From a virus, in the IMG/VR virus record IMGVR_UViG_3300043431_000053, positions 1 to 26,998 of that record: DNA of 26,998 nt. One strand, given 5' to 3'. Under the pieces are notes generated by a model. That model was not told the DNA's origin. It saw nothing but the letters and a program-made list of their open reading frames with translations, and ran no database searches. Positions 18,205-25,980 of the stretch are shown in pieces. A program made the translations under genes and the position numbers. How positions within the stretch are numbered: position 1 is the stretch's first letter; each line of letters starts with the position of its first letter.

Positions 18205-18234
18205 TAGACAAACGTGGTGTTAAAGTTTTATAAT
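18205..18234 (+). promoter_or_regulatory. Strong early promoter, rightward
   Basis: -35 TAGACA (5 of 6 to consensus), 18-base spacer, -10 TATAAT (6 of 6). Transcription should begin near 18241, about 210 bases before the first plus-strand ATG. This is the best sigma70-type promoter I can see in the window and would be read by host polymerase soon after infection. Confidence 0.65.
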
Positions 18235-18453: not shown

Positions 18454-18882
18454 ATGAAAAAACTCAACACCACACAGACAGCCGCAGTCAACGCCTACGC
18501 CGCATACCTCGCAGCAGGTGTCTCATACGGCGAAGCCATGCGCAAAGCGGCGCAGTCTCTCGGTGGGACAGCGTGTCCCACGTTCCTCGGTGAGCTTGCC
18601 GCCGTCCATGCGGCGAAGTACGCCTGTTCCTTCACGTGGGACGGCAAGGGCCAAGCCGTGTTCTTCAACGGCGAAGAATCAACCCGTGAGACCCGCAATG
18701 ACGCCGCCCGGAAATCGTGGAGCCGCAACGTGATGGTCTGGTTCACCCCCGAGCGTGAGGCCAAGCCTGCAAAGTCAATGCGTTTGAGCGCCGAAGCCCG
18801 TGCCGCCGCGAAAGCCTACCTCGCGCAGTTCGACAACGTGGCCGAAGCCGTGGCCGCTTTGCGTGCCGTTGCCGCCAAGTAA
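18454..18882 (+). CDS. Early protein of unknown function (142 aa)
   Basis: The first gene of the rightward operon, with a GGAGAAAC ribosome site and ATG at 18454. The 142-residue protein has an Ala-rich helical N-terminus (TQTAAVNAYAAYLAAGVSYGEAMRKAAQSL) and a central beta-like stretch (YACSFTWDGKGQAVFFNGEESTRETRNDAARKSWSRNVMVWFTPE). The C-terminus is an Ala-rich helix (LSAEARAAAKAYLAQFDNVAEAVAALRAVAAK). No catalytic motif or named family recognised. Copy 1 of the 19-base palindrome lies in-frame here (18563-18581) and encodes GTACPT, which interrupts the otherwise helical N-terminal part. First position after a strong promoter suggests a takeover or anti-host role, which is an inference. Confidence 0.65.
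   Translation: MKKLNTTQTAAVNAYAAYLAAGVSYGEAMRKAAQSLGGTACPTFLGELAAVHAAKYACSFTWDGKGQAVFFNGEESTRETRNDAARKSWSRNVMVWFTPEREAKPAKSMRLSAEARAAAKAYLAQFDNVAEAVAALRAVAAK
18563..18581. repeat. 19-base palindrome, copy 1 (inside a gene)
   Basis: GTGGGACAGCGTGTCCCAC: 8-base arms GTGGGACA/TGTCCCAC around GCG. This is the only copy within a coding sequence; it is in-frame and adds the residues G-T-A-C-P-T to the 142-residue protein. The arms are identical to the four intergenic copies. Confidence 0.85.
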
Positions 18883-18885
18883 TCG

Positions 18886-18904
18886 GTGGGACACCGTGTC
18901 CCAC
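18886..18904. repeat. 19-base palindrome, copy 2, with T run
   Basis: GTGGGACACCGTGTCCCAC starts 3 bases after the stop of the 142-residue gene and is followed by GAG and six T (18908-18913), so this copy can act as an intrinsic terminator or attenuator. A second hairpin, CCGGGC-(7)-GCCCGG at 18926-18944, follows before the next gene. Confidence 0.85.
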
Positions 18905-19001
18905 GAGTTTTTTGTTCCCAACCTGCCGGGCGAGGCTTGCCCGGTGTTTCCGTTCCTGTCCAGCGCACTAGCCACGCGAAACTTTTATCGGAGAAACTTC
19001 C

Positions 19002-19229
19002 ATGCGTAACACCAACACCCCCGTCCTCGAAACCATCCAACAGTTCCGTGATGCCTCTGGCTCTCTCTGGTGCGTCCAGCTCTACTACCCCAACGGCAAG
19101 GCCAAGGGCGGCGATCGCTACTGGATCGGCACCATCAACAACATCACCGAGAACAAGACCATCCCTGTGAGCAACCTCATGCAACTCGACTACGAGGTCG
19201 GCAAACTGCGTCAACCAGCCCTGTTCTGA
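19002..19229 (+). CDS. Early protein of unknown function (75 aa)
   Basis: A 75-residue protein preceded by GGAGAAACTTCC-ATG, the same leader as the gene before it. Sequence: ETIQQFRDASGSLWCVQLYYPNGKAKGGDRYWIGTINNITENKTIPVSNLMQLDYEVGKLRQPALF. The pattern suggests a small alpha/beta fold with one exposed basic loop (NGKAKGGDRYW). One Cys, no metal pair, no membrane segment. No family recognised. It lies between copies 2 and 3 of the 19-base palindrome and is followed by the 390-base non-coding region with the long inverted repeat. Confidence 0.65.
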   Translation: MRNTNTPVLETIQQFRDASGSLWCVQLYYPNGKAKGGDRYWIGTINNITENKTIPVSNLMQLDYEVGKLRQPALF

Positions 19230-19232
19230 CCC

Positions 19233-19251
19233 GTGGGACACAGTGTCCCAC
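19233..19251. repeat. 19-base palindrome, copy 3
   Basis: GTGGGACACAGTGTCCCAC, a perfect 9-base-arm palindrome around a central A, 3 bases after the stop of the 75-residue gene. It is followed at 19254-19273 by AGTACT-(8)-AGTACT, which can form a second hairpin, then A6. Confidence 0.85.
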
Positions 19252-19293
19252 CAAGTACTACCTGCGGAGTACTCAAAAAACAGTGTCCGTTTG

Positions 19294-19574
19294 CTTAATG
19301 TCGCTTTCAAACTGGCGGACAGCCGCAAACCCGCATGGTTGCGTCAACTCAGCACAAACTGTCCTCTCTATCTATCTATATTTATTTTATATATAGTAGT
19401 AGAAAGACCTTAATGTGAGAGAGCGTTGCTCCAGCACAGCAAAGTTAAAAGCTGTTAAACAGAAGCTAGGCATAGCCTTCTTTTGAAAATAGATAGATAG
19501 CGAGGACAGTCCAAGCCCAATCCCAGCAACCATGCGGGTTTGCGACCGTCCCGCAGTTCAAGATCGACCTTAAG
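19294..19574. repeat. 86-base gapless inverted repeat around a 109-base spacer
   Basis: The left arm (19294-19379) and right arm (19489-19574) are reverse complements at 65 of 86 positions without a gap. Four blocks, outside in: CTTAATGTCG vs CGACCTTAAG and flanks (21 of 30); a perfect 19-base core (right arm GCAACCATGCGGGTTTGCG, 19526-19544; left arm 19324-19342); a divergent 15-base block (4 of 15); and an inner 22-base block ending in ATAG repeats (21 of 22). The spacer (19380-19488) is AT-rich with small hairpins. No ORF with a ribosome site is found in 19230-19619. It could be a structured RNA, a replication origin, or paired protein sites. Confidence 0.8.
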
Positions 19575-19579
19575 GTTTG

Positions 19580-19588
19580 TGACATAAT
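19580..19588 (+). promoter_or_regulatory. Possible extended -10 promoter for the 248-residue gene
   Basis: TGACATAAT carries the TG of an extended -10 and CATAAT (5 of 6). No good -35 lies 17 bases upstream, as is usual for extended -10 promoters. It begins 6 bases outside the right arm of the inverted repeat and would start transcription near 19595, about 25 bases before the ATG at 19620. Confidence 0.4.
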
Positions 19589-19619
19589 CTGGAGACCTCA
19601 ATTTTTTAGGAGTTAAAAC

Positions 19620-20366
19620 ATGGAAAACGACATCAAAACGTGGTGGCTCAGCATGAGCGAGGGGCGATTGCGTAACCATCTGCGCACCAAGGTGCGGCTA
19701 CCTTCATCTATCGTGGAGGGCGTTGTAGCAAGGGTGCAGGAGTTAAAAGAAGCACAACGCAAGACTAAGATCAAGCAAGGCCGTGGCACATCCCTGTGGG
19801 ACGAGTTCCTTGAAGCGCCAAGGCACGAGGCATCCATCATCCGGGTGTTAAAGACTCAGCTCAAGAAGCAGGACGGAGAAGGCACGGCGAGGTGGCACGC
19901 ACTGTGTGCCTACGCTGACGTCATCAGTTCCGTGATCGAGAAACTCAAGGCAGAGGCCAAGGCTCGGGTGGCAACGCCACTCAAGCTACCTGCACTACTC
20001 CATGCCGATGGATTCTCACTACCCCGCAATGGTGGTGAACACTGGACGGACTACGTTAAGAACTCCGACCTCATCCGCATCCGCAACCTGTTCAACGCAC
20101 TGCCCCCACCAGCGAGAGGCAGGCACAAGACACCGTTCGAGCGTTCGTTGCCGCCAAGCGCATACAAGAAACGCAAAGCCGCCGTGTTCACCCGACTGCA
20201 AAGCGAACAGGAATCGGCCGAGCGTGCCCTTGAAGTAGCGCAGACCCCGGAAGATGTGGACAAGCTGACCGCCCTGCTCGACAAGATGCAGGAAGCCCAG
20301 TACCTACTGCACAACCACAAACGCAACACCCCACTGCCAGCCACATGGCACGGACTACTGAAATAA
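19620..20366 (+). CDS. Early protein of unknown function (248 aa, helical, basic)
   Basis: A 248-residue, highly charged, mainly helical protein with a TTAGGAGTT ribosome site. Segments: WWLSMSEGRLRNHLRTKVRLPSSIVEGVVARVQELKEAQRKTKIKQ (basic helices), SLWDEFLEAPRHEASIIRVLKTQLKKQDGEGTARWHALCAYADVISSVIEKLKAEAKARV, a Pro/basic centre (ALPPPARGRHKTPFERSLPPSAYKKRKAAVFTRLQSEQESAERALEVAQ), then TPEDVDKLTALLDKMQEAQYLLHNHKR. The TPEDVDKLTALLDKMQEA end looks like a coiled coil. One lone Cys, no metal site, no catalytic motif. Could be a nucleic-acid-binding or anti-host protein. It is bounded by the large inverted repeat upstream and palindrome copy 4 downstream. Confidence 0.7.
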   Translation: MENDIKTWWLSMSEGRLRNHLRTKVRLPSSIVEGVVARVQELKEAQRKTKIKQGRGTSLWDEFLEAPRHEASIIRVLKTQLKKQDGEGTARWHALCAYADVISSVIEKLKAEAKARVATPLKLPALLHADGFSLPRNGGEHWTDYVKNSDLIRIRNLFNALPPPARGRHKTPFERSLPPSAYKKRKAAVFTRLQSEQESAERALEVAQTPEDVDKLTALLDKMQEAQYLLHNHKRNTPLPATWHGLLK

Positions 20367-20383
20367 CAGCCAACGAAAACCCG

Positions 20384-20402
20384 GTGGGACACCCTGTCCC
20401 AC
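20384..20402. repeat. 19-base palindrome, copy 4
   Basis: GTGGGACACCCTGTCCCAC, 17 bases after the stop of the 248-residue gene; the flanking G and C extend the arms to 9 bases (20383-20403). It is followed after 7 bases by the pseudoknot candidate at 20410-20461. Confidence 0.85.
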
Positions 20403-20409
20403 CAACCAA

Positions 20410-20461
20410 CTCGGTCATGCTTCGCCGCCCGCATGACCGAGCCTACCCTGAACGGGCGGCG
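20410..20461 (+). promoter_or_regulatory. Candidate H-type RNA pseudoknot before a ribosome site
   Basis: Stem 1 is 11 perfect pairs, CTCGGTCATGC (20410-20420) with GCATGACCGAG (20431-20441). Its 10-base loop TTCGCCGCCC contains CGCCGCCC (20423-20430), the exact complement of GGGCGGCG at 20454-20461. Connecting loops are 2, 0 and 12 bases, which is compatible with a classical H-type pseudoknot. It ends 11 bases before the ribosome site AGGAGAAAGC of the next gene, so it could control that gene's translation. Confidence 0.55.
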
Positions 20462-20484
20462 CTTCTGAAACTAGGAGAAAGCAA

Positions 20485-20751
20485 ATGAGGCTTGATGACA
20501 TACCCGACACGGCGTACACCGCCGCACCTACCCCTGTGCCTACCAAGGTGGTGCACGACTGGCAGGCACTGCACGAGACACTCAAAGCGCGAGGCTTTGT
20601 TGTCATCGAGAGCGATGAGTTACGCAAGACACCAAGCGGAGGTGTTGAATCGTCCTTGGTCAAGATGTTCAACAGCCACCTGCGCAACACCGCAGGCATT
20701 CGCCTCAAGACCAGACGCATCAGCGCACACCGCTGGTACTGCACCCTGTAA
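20485..20751 (+). CDS. Small protein of unknown function (88 aa)
   Basis: An 88-residue protein with the AGGAGAAAGCAA leader directly before ATG. The N-terminal 24 residues are Pro/Thr-rich (DDIPDTAYTAAPTPVPTKV), followed by an alpha/beta segment (WQALHETLKARGFVVIESDELRKTPSGGVESSLVKMFNSHLRNTAGIRLKTRRISAHRWYCTL). The basic C-terminus (RLKTRRISAHRWYC) and the overall shape suggest a small nucleic-acid-binding or regulatory protein, but I recognise no family. Its mRNA leader carries the pseudoknot candidate. Confidence 0.65.
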   Translation: MRLDDIPDTAYTAAPTPVPTKVVHDWQALHETLKARGFVVIESDELRKTPSGGVESSLVKMFNSHLRNTAGIRLKTRRISAHRWYCTL

Positions 20752-20770
20752 CAACACAAGGAGAAAGCAA

Positions 20771-21013
20771 ATGACTGACAAGACAACACCCCACCACTTC
20801 TTTGCGGCAAGCGCAACCATGTGGGTCACGACCAACGACAAGCGCACCCTGCAAGGGGTGCTCAAGATCATGGACAAGGAGAAGCAAGCCTACAACCTAT
20901 ACCGAGTACCCGTAGCGCACGACACGGAGTACGACATCGAGTGGTTCATGCCACAGGTAGAGGGCACGATGCACCTTGGCACCTTCACATTCAAGCAAGG
21001 AGGCAAGCGATGA
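20771..21013 (+). CDS. Small protein of unknown function (80 aa)
   Basis: An 80-residue protein starting MTDKTTPHHFFAASATMWVTT with the leader AGGAGAAAGCAA immediately before the ATG. A longer in-frame reading starting at 20492 overlaps the previous gene and is rejected. Body: KRTLQGVLKIMDKEKQAYNLYRVPVAHDTEYDIEWFMPQVEGTMHLGTFTFKQGGKR, a likely small beta-sheet fold of strands around one helix. No motif of known function. Its stop overlaps the next start (ATGA), so the two genes are coupled. Confidence 0.7.
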   Translation: MTDKTTPHHFFAASATMWVTTNDKRTLQGVLKIMDKEKQAYNLYRVPVAHDTEYDIEWFMPQVEGTMHLGTFTFKQGGKR

Positions 21014-21174
21014 CAGCACCTGAGTTACTGAAACAAGAGATGCCGCTGGTGCGGCGCATAGACGCTGACCTTGCCGAGCACGGCTACGTCAAAGGTAGCG
21101 CTGAGTACTACCAGATGTTCGCAGACATGGTGAAGTTTCACCGATGGTTTGGTTGGGCGGTAGTAAAGAAGTGA
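21010..21174 (+). CDS. 54-residue protein of unknown function
   Basis: MTAPELLKQEMPLVRRIDAD followed by LAEHGYVKGSAEYYQMFADMVKFHRWFGWAVVKK. The ATG is within the stop of the preceding gene (ATGA) and is preceded by an AAGGAGGCAAGCG ribosome site, both good support for such a short gene. Mostly helical, with an aromatic, basic C-terminus (KFHRWFGWAVVKK) that might touch a membrane or nucleic acid. No family recognised. Palindrome copy 5 starts 4 bases after its stop. Confidence 0.65.
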   Translation: MTAPELLKQEMPLVRRIDADLAEHGYVKGSAEYYQMFADMVKFHRWFGWAVVKK

Positions 21175-21178
21175 ATCC

Positions 21179-21197
21179 GTGGGACACCCTGTCCCAC
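21179..21197. repeat. 19-base palindrome, copy 5
   Basis: GTGGGACACCCTGTCCCAC, identical to copy 4, 4 bases after the stop of the 54-residue gene. A second hairpin follows at 21206-21230 (TGCCGGGC / GCCCGGTA with one G-U pair), closely matching the one after copy 2; then comes the ribosome leader of the 504-residue gene. Confidence 0.85.
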
Positions 21198-21258
21198 CAA
21201 CGCCTTGCCGGGCGGCGACCAAGCCCGGTACTTTCAAATGAAACTAGGAGAAAGCAAA

Positions 21259-22773
21259 ATGGCAAGCTATAAATTCAACGGTATCCGTGAAGCAGAGACG
21301 TTCTGGCGTGACTGGGTCGAGCCAACGATCCGCATCTTGAACGGTGATGTGTACGACAGGGTGTTTCGCCTCGACGGCGGGTACGACTATGTGCGGCGCT
21401 ACGCTGGCCGCGAGTGGTTCAAGCAACAGTACCGCCGCCATCGTATGCACCCCGCAGTCGGTAAGATGTTCGAGTTGTACAAGCCAGCCGACTGGCAACG
21501 AGTCATCCTTGAGTGGCCACACAAGTCCATCACTGACCCAAACCGCTTGGCCTATACCCGTGACGAGAAGTCAGCCATGCACGACGGCGACAGCGACAAG
21601 AAAGCTGTGGTCACAACGATCGGCAAGTACATGACACGCCACTGGCCTGACGTGCCATCCAACATCATCCGTGACATCGTGGCCGAGCACACATACGGTG
21701 GCAGTATCGAGATCACCACTGATCTCAAGCGCATGGTGTCTGTCGTGAGCAACGGGCCTCGCTCTTGTATGTCGAGCAGCTTCGACATCGAGTGTGAGCG
21801 TGGCGTTGAGCGCCATCCGTATGCTGTGTATGACCCCTCGCTTGGCTGGTCTATGGCTGTGCGCTGTGAGGGTGACGAGGTGCTGGGCCGATGCCTCATC
21901 TGGACTGACCCCGATGACGCTGATCGCAAGGGCTATGTGCGTTCGTACAAACGTGAGCGCAGTGAGCGTGCTCACTCTGGTGCTGACGAGGCTATCGAGG
22001 CGCATCTCAACGGCCAAGGGTATACCAAGTGGCGTGCATGGCGTGACGGTAGCCGCCTCATGAAGTACGAGACACGGCGTGGCGGGTATCTCATGCCCTA
22101 CATTGACGGCGGCACTCAGCGGGTGCATGACGCAGGGGACGGGTTCGAGATAGCGGAGGACGGTGACTACGATGCCAGCAACACAGGCGGCACGATCAAT
22201 CAGTACGAGTACACCTGTGAGGACTGCGGCGCTGGGTTCAACGATGGCGATGGGTACTGGACTGGCGTCCACGAGGAGCACCATGTGTGTGACTCATGCC
22301 GCGATGACAACTACACCTACGCTTACTCACGCCGTGGCAATCAGTACTACATCAACAGCGCTGACGTCATTGAGGTTGACGGCGAGTACTACCACGAGGA
22401 CTACCTGTCTGACAACGGCATCGTTGAGTTGCACGACGGTGACTACGCACACCAAGACAACGCTGTGTACATCGAGTCTGCCGACGAGTACTACCTACAC
22501 GATGACGATGCCATCTGCTACACCGAGGACACCAATGAGTACGAGTTGAAAGATAACTGCTGGGAGTGCACTGAGTCAGGCAACTGGTACACCGATGGCA
22601 CCGACAGCGTAGAAGTTGATGGCGACCTGTACCACCCTGACAATGCGCCAGAGGTAGACGACGATAACGGCGAAGAAGACGAGGACGAGGCTGAGACAGC
22701 GGTCGAGGTCGAGCCTACCATCATCGCAGTAGTTGACGTAACCATTGACGAGCGCTTCTCGCTCGCCGCTTAA
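21259..22773 (+). CDS. Large acidic phage protein with CxxC zinc site and repeats (504 aa)
   Basis: A 504-residue protein with leader AGGAGAAAGCAAA before ATG 21259. Residues 1-300 form a conserved-looking part: TIGKYMTRHWPDVPSNIIRDIVAEHTY, VSNGPRSCMSSS, HPYAVYDPSLGWSMAVRCEGDEVLGRCLIW, KGYVRSYKRERS, DEAIEAHLNGQGYTKWRAWRDGSRLM, GYLMPYIDGG. From memory this is a hypothetical protein family in cyanophages and other environmental phages. A zinc site follows (Cys320/Cys323 and Cys344/Cys347). Residues 350-465 are imperfect Asp/Glu/Tyr-rich repeats around YYxxDDxxxx with another CxxC (434/437), and a very acidic end (VDDDNGEEDEDEAE). The acidic tail could mimic DNA or bind metal. Function unknown. 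Confidence 0.8.
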   Translation: MASYKFNGIREAETFWRDWVEPTIRILNGDVYDRVFRLDGGYDYVRRYAGREWFKQQYRRHRMHPAVGKMFELYKPADWQRVILEWPHKSITDPNRLAYTRDEKSAMHDGDSDKKAVVTTIGKYMTRHWPDVPSNIIRDIVAEHTYGGSIEITTDLKRMVSVVSNGPRSCMSSSFDIECERGVERHPYAVYDPSLGWSMAVRCEGDEVLGRCLIWTDPDDADRKGYVRSYKRERSERAHSGADEAIEAHLNGQGYTKWRAWRDGSRLMKYETRRGGYLMPYIDGGTQRVHDAGDGFEIAEDGDYDASNTGGTINQYEYTCEDCGAGFNDGDGYWTGVHEEHHVCDSCRDDNYTYAYSRRGNQYYINSADVIEVDGEYYHEDYLSDNGIVELHDGDYAHQDNAVYIESADEYYLHDDDAICYTEDTNEYELKDNCWECTESGNWYTDGTDSVEVDGDLYHPDNAPEVDDDNGEEDEDEAETAVEVEPTIIAVVDVTIDERFSLAA

Positions 22774-22791: not shown

Positions 22792-23958
22792 ATGACTTTC
22801 AACACAAACACCAACACCATCCTGTACAAAACTCTTGCCCGTGCACTGTCCATGATGCGACCGCACAACAGCGAGGGAACCAAGCGCTTGACCGACTGGC
22901 TTGAGACCAGCGCACGTACCTTACCCAACGCAATGATCGGCCGTGACGCTATCGGCAATCTCCATGTGGACACACGCCTTAACCCATCCAACCGCACGTT
23001 GTTCGTTGCGCACGTCGACACTGTGCACCGCAAGGAAGGCCCCAACAAGATCAGGAAGACGGCGACCCACTGGCATGCTGACGGGGCAGCTCTCGGTGCC
23101 GATGATGGCGCGGGTGTTGCGATGCTTATGCACTTGTTGCACAGCGGTGTCCCTGCTTACTACGTGTTCACTCAAGGTGAGGAGTGCGGCGGTATCGGTG
23201 CGACATGGCTGGCGGACAACTGGAAGGACGGGCTTGCCAAGTTCGACCGCGCCATTGCGTTTGACCGCAGGGGTATCGACAGCGTCATCACACACCAAGG
23301 GCGTGGGCGTTGCTGCTCTGATGCGTTTGGTGATGCACTGAGCGCCGCACTCAACGAGGACATGACGCTTATGTATCTGCCCGACAACTCAGGTGTGTAC
23401 ACCGACACTGCCGAGTTCATCGACATCATCCCCGAGTGCACCAACATATCGGTGGGCTACTACTCTGAGCACAGCGACAAGGAGTCTATCGACATCATCC
23501 ACTTCCAAGAGCTGGCCAAGCGTGTTGCTCGCATCGACTGGGATGCACTGCCCACTGATCGTGACCCGACTGTGCGCGAGAGCAAGTGGGGCTCCTACTA
23601 CGCCGCTGACTATGCAAGCTGGGGGGAGTGGAACCGCAATGGGTGGGGAGCGACCAGTGTCAGTTCTGTTGACCGGGATGGTGGGAATACCTACCATCAC
23701 CTGACTGATGACGGTGATGACGAGTGGATGCGTGAGGAACTGCGCGATGCGCTGTATGACGCAATGGCTGGCAGTAAGCAGTGGCTGATCGAGTTGCTGT
23801 GCGAGTCGGTGTACCCCGAAGACCCGGAGATGGCCGAGCACTTCATTGACCGCAACAAGCTGGACGAGGAGACGCTGACCATCGCCTTGCAACACAGCAC
23901 TGTGTTCGACCCCGACACTGTGCTGGCTGAGATATTCGACATCGCATATCGCACTTAA
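22792..23958 (+). CDS. M20/M28/M42-type zinc metallopeptidase
   Basis: A 388-residue protein; residues 1-245 carry the metal-ligand pattern of this co-catalytic zinc peptidase clan. His74 and Asp76 are in LFVAHVDTVH. Asp104 is in ALGADDGAGVAML, the metal-bridging Asp followed by the clan's GAG loop. Glu130/Glu131 are in FTQGEECGGIGA (catalytic base and ligand), Asp158 is in AIAFDRRG, and His227 is in SVGYYSEHSDKE. The full set looks present, so the enzyme is probably active, most likely an aminopeptidase or amidase-type hydrolase. Residues 250-388 are an extra acidic domain with YHHLTDDGDDEWMREELRDAL. A leader GGAGAAACATCC precedes the ATG. Substrate unknown; protein turnover or cell-wall/peptide scavenging are possibilities. 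Confidence 0.8.
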   Translation: MTFNTNTNTILYKTLARALSMMRPHNSEGTKRLTDWLETSARTLPNAMIGRDAIGNLHVDTRLNPSNRTLFVAHVDTVHRKEGPNKIRKTATHWHADGAALGADDGAGVAMLMHLLHSGVPAYYVFTQGEECGGIGATWLADNWKDGLAKFDRAIAFDRRGIDSVITHQGRGRCCSDAFGDALSAALNEDMTLMYLPDNSGVYTDTAEFIDIIPECTNISVGYYSEHSDKESIDIIHFQELAKRVARIDWDALPTDRDPTVRESKWGSYYAADYASWGEWNRNGWGATSVSSVDRDGGNTYHHLTDDGDDEWMREELRDALYDAMAGSKQWLIELLCESVYPEDPEMAEHFIDRNKLDEETLTIALQHSTVFDPDTVLAEIFDIAYRT

Positions 23959-24792: not shown

Positions 24793-25980
24793 ATGAAACA
24801 AGTCATACAAGATCAGGGCGCACGCCCGATCAAAATCTGGACAGACGAGGTTGAAGAATCTGCACTGACCCAACTCAAGAACCTGTCGCGCCTGCCTTTC
24901 ATCGCAAGCAACGGCGTGGCCTGTATGCCTGACGTACACGCTGGCATCGGCTCGACTGTGGGCACCGTCATTGCCACCGAGAAGGCGGTCATACCCGCTG
25001 CTGTGGGCGTTGACATCGGCTGCGGCATGAACGCGCTGCGCCTATCCCTCAAGGCCAGCGATCTGCCCGACAACCTGAAGCCTTTGCGTGACGAGATTGA
25101 GCGCCGTGTACCTCTGGGTGTTGGCGGTGCACACGACGACAGCACTGACATTGGTGAGCTGAATGGAATGATTTGGAAAACCATCATTCATCCTATCTTC
25201 AAGGGCGACCACAACAGGTTCCATGAAAAGGCTGCGTCACAGATCGGTTCATTGGGTTCGGGCAACCACTTCATCGAGGTGTGCATCGACGAGAGCCAAG
25301 ATGTGTGGATCATGCTGCACTCCGGCTCACGCGGTATCGGCAACATGATCGGCACACACTACATCGCCAAGGCCAAGCGTCAGATGGAGCAGTTCTTTAT
25401 CACGCTGCCCGATGACAACCTAGCGTACTTCCCTGAAGACACCGAGGACTTTGATGACTACATGCACGCCGTTGGATGGGCGCAGAACTATGCGCTCGAG
25501 AACCGCCGCCGCATGATGCTGCAAGTGGTCACTGCCATGCGCGAGATGCTGCCCGCCTTTACCATCACACAGGAAGCAATCAACTGCCACCACAACTATG
25601 TCGAAAAAGAACACCACTTCGGACGCAACATGTGGGTTACTCGTAAAGGTGCCATCCGCGCACGTGCAGGCGATCTTGGCATCATCCCCGGCTCTATGGG
25701 ACAACGAAGCTACATTGTGCGGGGTAAGGGTGATCTCCAATCATATTGTTCCTGCTCACACGGCGCTGGTCGTGTCATGTCGCGTGCTGAAGCCAAGCGA
25801 CGTTTCAGTCTTGTTGACCTCATCGCTCAAACAGAAGGCGTTGAGTGCCGCAAGGACGAAGGAGTGATTGACGAGATTCCTGCCAGCTACAAGGATATCG
25901 ACCAAGTGATGGCCAACCAAACCGACCTCGTTGAAGTGGTGCACACGCTCAAGCAAGTGCTCTGCATCAAAGGCAATTAA
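24793..25980 (+). CDS. rtcB: RtcB-type tRNA/RNA-splicing ligase
   Basis: A 395-residue RtcB ligase (about 408 in E. coli). It joins RNA 2',3'-cyclic phosphate or 3'-phosphate ends to 5'-OH ends using GTP and Mn2+. Conserved blocks in order: CMPDVHAGIGSTVGTVIA (45-61), GVDIGCGM (72-79; Asp74 and Cys77 metal ligands), GSLGSGNHFIE (152-162; His159), MLHSGSRGIGN (174-184; His176), INCHHNYV (263-270; His267), IIPGSMGQRSYIVRG (297-311), and CSHGAGR (321-327; His323, the residue that receives GMP). None of the key residues is missing. Leader AGGAGAAAGCAAA precedes the ATG. Phage RNA repair can undo host anticodon-nuclease or toxin cleavage of tRNA; whether that is its role here is inference. Confidence 0.93.
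   Translation: MKQVIQDQGARPIKIWTDEVEESALTQLKNLSRLPFIASNGVACMPDVHAGIGSTVGTVIATEKAVIPAAVGVDIGCGMNALRLSLKASDLPDNLKPLRDEIERRVPLGVGGAHDDSTDIGELNGMIWKTIIHPIFKGDHNRFHEKAASQIGSLGSGNHFIEVCIDESQDVWIMLHSGSRGIGNMIGTHYIAKAKRQMEQFFITLPDDNLAYFPEDTEDFDDYMHAVGWAQNYALENRRRMMLQVVTAMREMLPAFTITQEAINCHHNYVEKEHHFGRNMWVTRKGAIRARAGDLGIIPGSMGQRSYIVRGKGDLQSYCSCSHGAGRVMSRAEAKRRFSLVDLIAQTEGVECRKDEGVIDEIPASYKDIDQVMANQTDLVEVVHTLKQVLCIKGN

Follow-up and report, generated by a model that had tools for sequence, protein, structure and literature searches.

Repeated palindromes in a putative early operon

The window (the whole stretch of DNA analyzed here, 26,998 nucleotides from IMG/VR virus record IMGVR_UViG_3300043431_000053) contains a segment of six plus-strand genes, g1 to g6 (18454..21174), which we infer from its position and gene content to be an early operon. 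The genes are g1 (18454..18882), g2 (19002-19229), g3 (19620-20366), g4 (20485-20751), g5 (20771-21013) and g6 (21010-21174). Upstream of g1, a sigma70-like promoter match (18205..18234, plus strand; TAGACA-18-TATAAT) agrees with the consensus at 11 of 12 bases and is a consensus match only. It is the sole strong match of this type near the palindromes described below, and it likely starts the rightward operon.

The palindrome GTGGGACA-NNN-TGTCCCAC, to which no strand is assigned, is found in five exact copies. Copy 1 (18563..18581, centre GCG) is located inside g1 and occupies codons 37-43. Copy 2 (18886..18904, centre CCG) starts 3 nt past the g1 stop codon, which ends at 18882, and copy 3 (19233..19251, centre CAG) starts 3 nt past that of g2, which ends at 19229. 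Copy 4 (20384..20402, centre CCC) starts 17 nt past the stop of g3 (ending at 20366), and copy 5 (21179..21197, centre CCC) starts 4 nt past the stop of g6 (ending at 21174). A scan of the window confirmed the positions and centres given in the first-pass annotation, the location of four copies 3-17 bases past a stop codon, and the lack of any further copy, which is true even with 3 mismatches allowed. Shuffled windows contain a mean of 0.18 copies and never reach five, so the observed number is far above chance.

Two features initially ascribed to all copies, a position between genes and a second hairpin that follows, apply to copies 2-5 and not to copy 1, which is coding sequence. The T-run described at copy 2 is present as GAGTTTTTTG directly after that copy. 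Third codon positions in copy 1 are invariant: its six arm codons are 100% identical at these positions in 19 g1 genes of the GTGGGACA type, compared with a mean third-base identity of 66% in 34 other conserved g1 codons of the same genes. An Rfam search of the window revealed no match.

Genome-specific versions of the palindrome

The exact window palindrome is found in 70 stretches of IMG/VR, and about 40 of these encode relatives of the window's TerS and TerL proteins, often with 3-6 copies of the palindrome. Across bacterial and archaeal genomes totalling 257 Gb, it is found in 86 stretches versus about 60 expected from its 16 fixed bases (4^-16), with one site per stretch; three of these stretches are on one Massiliimalia contig. 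The motif scan of host-type and unrelated genomes that had been proposed as a check therefore places the palindrome near chance in bacteria and archaea, whereas in IMG/VR it marks a clade of phages. The nearest annotated phages are remote, with a TerL identity of about 50%.

Relatives were collected by g1 and by TerL, the TerL relatives numbering roughly 600 or more. A de novo search among the relatives revealed 3-7 copies of a genome-specific palindrome in the same operon and near g1 in at least 83 contigs from related uncultured phages, a count that includes some redundant records. Arm types across genomes include GTGGGACA, GTGAGACA, GTGGAACA, GTGGCACA, GTGATACA, GTACGACA, GGGGAAC, CGGGTCA, GCGGACA, TGTGGTCA and others. 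Relatives that lack GTGGGACA have another palindrome in the same places, for example GTGGCACA in L087, GTGGAACA in L052, GTGAGACA in L079 and L080, and GTGATACA in L081-L084. The arms, which were described as invariant, are thus exact in the five window copies and differ in related phages, each of which has its own palindrome. They largely agree within one genome, differ between genomes and are mostly symmetric within each site, and most changes are also symmetric, with both half-sites shifting together. The spacing between the arms is 3 nt in the window (gap 3) and 2 nt in many relatives (gap 2). These comparisons suggest that site and g1 protein both come in a separate version in each of the related freshwater phages, and that the two change together.

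In five long genomes (G001, G003, G004, G007 and G010; 61.9-66.0 kb), palindrome copies are found only in the early operon, and no other palindrome families of this kind are present. No such family was found in 50 simulated genomes, or in the first 30-50 kb of the distant cultured relatives DSL-LC04, HTVC027P, HTVC023P and 023Pt. The sites are found within or close to g1 and then between the genes that follow it. A site just past the g1 stop codon recurs in most relatives, and intergenic sites start a median of 5 nt after a stop codon and lie 72 nt before the next start codon. No promoter elements were detected in 179 non-redundant flanks of the sites.

Seven contigs with no detected match to window proteins (L022, L026, L028, L031, L038, L039 and L064) contain the window palindrome ringed by extra GTGGGAC/GTCCCAC half-sites, in several of the contigs just upstream of a gene start. 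These contigs possibly use another regulator with a similar site.

Palindrome type and the g1 gene

In comparisons of nearest neighbours, the palindrome type tracks g1, and neither the terminase nor the gene after g1. The nearest neighbour by the N-terminal domain of g1 has the same core arm and spacing in 62 of 89 genomes, compared with 29/89 for TerL, 41/89 for TerS and 17/45 for g3. With the whole 8-base arm, the corresponding values are 54/89, 28/89, 38/89 and 14/45. In the core-arm version, which was run after the whole-arm version, pairs were required to have a TerL identity <97% and non-identical g1. In 27 of the 89 genomes, the nearest g1 neighbour has a different arm type.

Closely related genomes point the same way. 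Among pairs with a TerL identity of at least 95%, g1 identity times coverage is about 80% when the palindrome is the same (n=50) and 23% when the palindromes differ (n=48). The genomes L137 and L138 have different palindromes, with identities of 99.0% for TerL and 49.5% for g1, and L018 and L211, which also differ in palindrome, are 99.8% identical in TerL and 81% in g1.

The g3 protein (19620-20366) was considered as the cognate protein and rejected. The genomes L081, L082 and L083 have GTGATACA in common and encode very different g3 proteins, and genomes with GTGGGACA carry either g3 or an unrelated protein, so g3 is decoupled from the palindrome type.

Candidate regulator and recognition residues

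The g1 gene encodes a protein of 142 aa from no known family, which we propose as a palindrome-binding regulator on the basis of the way palindrome type follows it, residue co-variation and an AF2 model. Searches of Pfam and PHROG revealed no family match for g1, and 48 g1 members have no meaningful Pfam match. No homologue was detected by tblastn in 50,697 phage records, bacterial genomes (prophages) likewise contain none, and a search of PDB sequence profiles returned nothing below E 0.1. In fold searches, the best PDB second-look match (Z 4.4) is to a designed protein and is uninformative, and BFVD contains no match below E 0.9; none of the fold matches marks g1 as a DNA-binding protein.

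The AF2 model (pLDDT 87) comprises three helices, a two-strand hairpin, a helix at residues 83-92, a linker and two C-terminal helices. A second class of g1 with <20% identity to that of the window is predicted to have the same order of elements (pLDDT 76), and the profiles of the two classes match with 93% probability. Among other classes, one matches the window class in the C-terminal part only and one matches weakly. Common descent of all g1 classes is therefore tentative. The C-terminal domain was rejected as the determinant of arm spacing, since L018 (gap 2) and L211 (gap 3) have the same type of C-terminal domain and one site in L018 has gap 3.

The predicted recognition helix is at residues 83-92 (18700..18729, plus strand), where D83, R86 and K87 track arm bases 4 and 5. 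Among 77 columns not encoded by the operator in 26 non-redundant g1 proteins, ranks 1 and 2 go to D83 and R86 for arm base 4 and to K87 and D83 for base 5. None of 1000 permutations, which do not model a tree although the genomes share ancestry, reached values as high. In the g1 class of the window, to which this comparison applies, residues 38 and 42 are copy 1 codons and change with the operator trivially. At residue 87, K is found with G5, M with A5 or C5, and Q or V with T5. For base 4, D or E at residue 83, usually plus R86, is found with G4, and other residues at 83 plus T, Q or F at 86 are found with A4. Exceptions are T86 with G4 in L012 and L013, H86 with G4 in L042, Q87 with G5 in L006, and S or N at residue 83 with G4 in L052, L087 and L211.

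Because of the shared ancestry in the permutation test, four sister pairs are the main guard. In these pairs, base 5 changes from G to A or C, and K87M accompanies the change in 4/4. The only residues that differ in all four pairs are 9, 42 (operator-encoded) and 87. Later-fetched genomes agree (L192 and L211, 'RMSW'; L213, 'QVSW'; L212, 'QKSW'). Contacts of Lys or Arg with G are common in protein-DNA recognition. The joint changes of site and protein thus hint at the particular base that each of these amino acids would read.

Proposed mechanism and alternatives

We consider it probable that the palindromes are double-stranded DNA operators of g1, which would be an early autoregulatory DNA-binding protein that represses by roadblock. 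Binding of g1 to the palindromes is strongly suggested by the co-variation of the two, and repression by roadblock is a more tentative part of the proposal. Coming first in the rightward operon, g1 would be made early, and its product would bind the palindromes, probably as a dimer in which each subunit contacts one 8-bp arm. D83, R86 and K87, at the start of the helix formed by residues 83-92, would recognize bases 4 and 5 of the arm from the major groove. As its level rises, g1 would become bound within its own gene and in the gaps that follow, and so switch off the operon that encodes it, most likely by standing in the way of elongating RNA polymerase at the sites. A block to elongation is favoured because the sites have no promoter signature and come after the one clear promoter. 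Sites and g1 do not match in every case, as some genomes (L047, L052, L035, L040 and L057) have mixed sites. Of the four options offered in the first-pass annotation, the evidence favours an operator set for a phage regulator, with g1 as the candidate. On this reading, the anonymous repeats would become the target sites of a regulator family with candidate specificity residues and many natural variants, and a function is proposed for a gene family outside Pfam and PHROGs.

The same co-variation would fit equally well if g1 bound the palindromes as an activator, an antiterminator or a genome-organizing, partition-like protein, and the clustering of sites in one region resembles centromere-like arrays. 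However, no promoter signature is found near the sites, and no ParA-like gene is among the Pfam and PHROG matches listed for G001, so we regard a role other than repression as rather unlikely. The sites might instead act in mRNA as hairpins with an 8-bp stem and a 3-nt loop, serving in processing, stability or translation and read by g1 or a host factor. Their median distance of 5 nt past a stop codon and the nearly perfect complementarity of the arms are consistent with this role, as is a predominance of C over G (63 vs 36) at the mRNA-strand centre position of sites in the GT..ACA class, which may reflect shared ancestry of the sites. However, mRNA-strand core mismatches outside g1 are A-C or C-A in 28 cases and G-T or T-G in 7, the reverse of what RNA pairing would favour. 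Sites also occur in both orientations within gap-2 families, a gap of 2 leaves no normal loop unless a pair opens, and the coding location of copy 1 is unhelpful for a role in protecting ends. Duplex DNA is favoured because of the A-C core mismatches, the two orientations in gap-2 families and the tracking of single arm bases by K87, R86 and D83, and hairpins that protect or process the mRNA are correspondingly improbable. Attenuation, or termination in general, is unsupported, as a T-run follows a copy on the mRNA strand only at copy 2.

If the sites were hairpin promoters recognized by a virion RNA polymerase of the N4 type, they would share with the early promoters of N4 a short stem and 3-nt loop. 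Most core mismatches also read as G-T on the template strand. Yet gaps of 2 and 3 are both present, the palindrome type follows g1, and the giant virion-side ORF of these phages (2230-aa version searched) has LPD38 as its sole Pfam match and no match among PDB sequences, so promoters of this type are highly unlikely. The multiple, mostly intergenic copies could also represent a mobile palindromic element or a repeat with no regulatory role. This explanation is very improbable, as both arms of a given site change in step while its flanks stay near-identical (L087 vs L001, L052 vs L062), the positions relative to g1 are conserved, and the sites are linked to g1 residues.

Comparison with known phage systems

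The palindrome system is best read as working like the multi-site repressor systems of phages, such as stoperators and the CIRs of phiC31. Cluster A mycobacteriophages, including L5 and TipsytheTRex, have several genome-specific sites per phage, and the site motif and repressor diverge together (PMC6550527). The immunity repressor is proposed to stop transcription elongation at stoperators (PMC9283540), which are asymmetric, have a 13-bp core and are distributed genome-wide, mostly in one orientation, and to which the repressor, a protein with two DNA-binding domains, binds as a monomer (PMC6550527, PMC9283540). The window clade likewise has genome-specific sites that co-vary with a candidate regulator. 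In contrast, its sites are inverted repeats, with flipped copies in gap-2 families, and number 3-7 in one operon instead of being spread genome-wide. Moreover, no search linked g1 to a known repressor. With regard to a helix-turn-helix, Pfam gave no meaningful match for the 48 members and the fold searches no clear one.

The CIRs of phiC31 are palindromic operators of the c repressor that are repeated between early genes. The palindromes of the window clade, for which we suggest an operator role, are also repeated between genes of an early operon. However, phiC31 is temperate and has a known repressor, whereas g1 has no match in phage records and no lysogeny genes are among the matches listed for G001. 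The tblastn search with g1 matched no phage record, and any relation to the c repressor would be a distant one. The promoter-early stem-loop cassettes of T4-type phages are also repeated intergenic sequences that form hairpins, but they carry an early promoter, whereas the window-clade sites have no promoter signature and track a protein. The promoters of the N4 virion RNA polymerase comprise a short stem and a 3-nt loop in a few early copies. In contrast, no such polymerase was recognized by Pfam or PDB sequence searches, the spacing of the window-clade sites varies and their type follows g1. A literature search found no report of palindromic operators in lytic phages.

Evolution of site and regulator

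L040 and L035 have CAGAGAGA sites, and the g1 of L057 resembles the g1 of these two genomes. L057 has one CAGAGAGA site near g1, and its three downstream sites are GTGGGACA. Orphan sites are also present elsewhere: one GTGGGACA in L040 and in L035/L069, and one GTGGAACA in L047. This pattern resembles an exchange of g1 after which the distal sites were converted.

No integrase or lysogeny genes are among the Pfam and PHROG matches listed for the 49 ORFs of G001. Lysogeny is not indicated, because G001 has no listed integrase and bacterial genomes contain no g1 homologue. It is a speculative possibility that g1 represents a new DNA-binding fold with a readable base code, and that an apparently non-lysogenic clade diversifies operator and regulator together and so avoids mutual silencing during co-infection. 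If this is true, these phages would form immunity groups without lysogeny, and L057, in which g1 would have been replaced ahead of the distal sites, would capture a switch in progress. Operator and reader appear to have been switched many times in one phage clade, which makes it testable how specificity at multiple sites changes without breaking the circuit. The near-identical sister pairs L018/L211 and L052/L062 and the apparent intermediate L057 provide material for such tests.

Other features of the window and its relatives

The noncoding region before g3 (19252-19620) is predicted to form one long hairpin RNA, with a minimum free energy of -133 kcal/mol and a z score of -9.0 over 374 nt, and has no Rfam match. 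A strongly folding gap of approximately 350-400 nt recurs before g3-type genes in many relatives, and less so before the alternative gene.

The window also contains an RtcB RNA ligase gene (24793-25980; Pfam E 3.4e-128), which is unmatched in the first 70 loci that were related or carried the pattern, and a gene for an M28-like peptidase (phrog_4191, 22792-23958) that is present in several relatives. The giant virion-side ORF mentioned above (L170:10283-16975) encodes 2230 aa with an LPD38 polyvalent-protein domain, and its length is 2230-2743 aa across five genomes. Its sequence might conceivably be that of a divergent polymerase.

The second hairpins past copies 4 and 5 are located at 20405-20440 and 21200-21235. 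Their GCCGGGC/GCCCGGC stem corresponds to GTCGGGC/GCCCGAC in the relatives L042 and L068, a pattern that hints at a conserved RNA hairpin before the gene at 21259.
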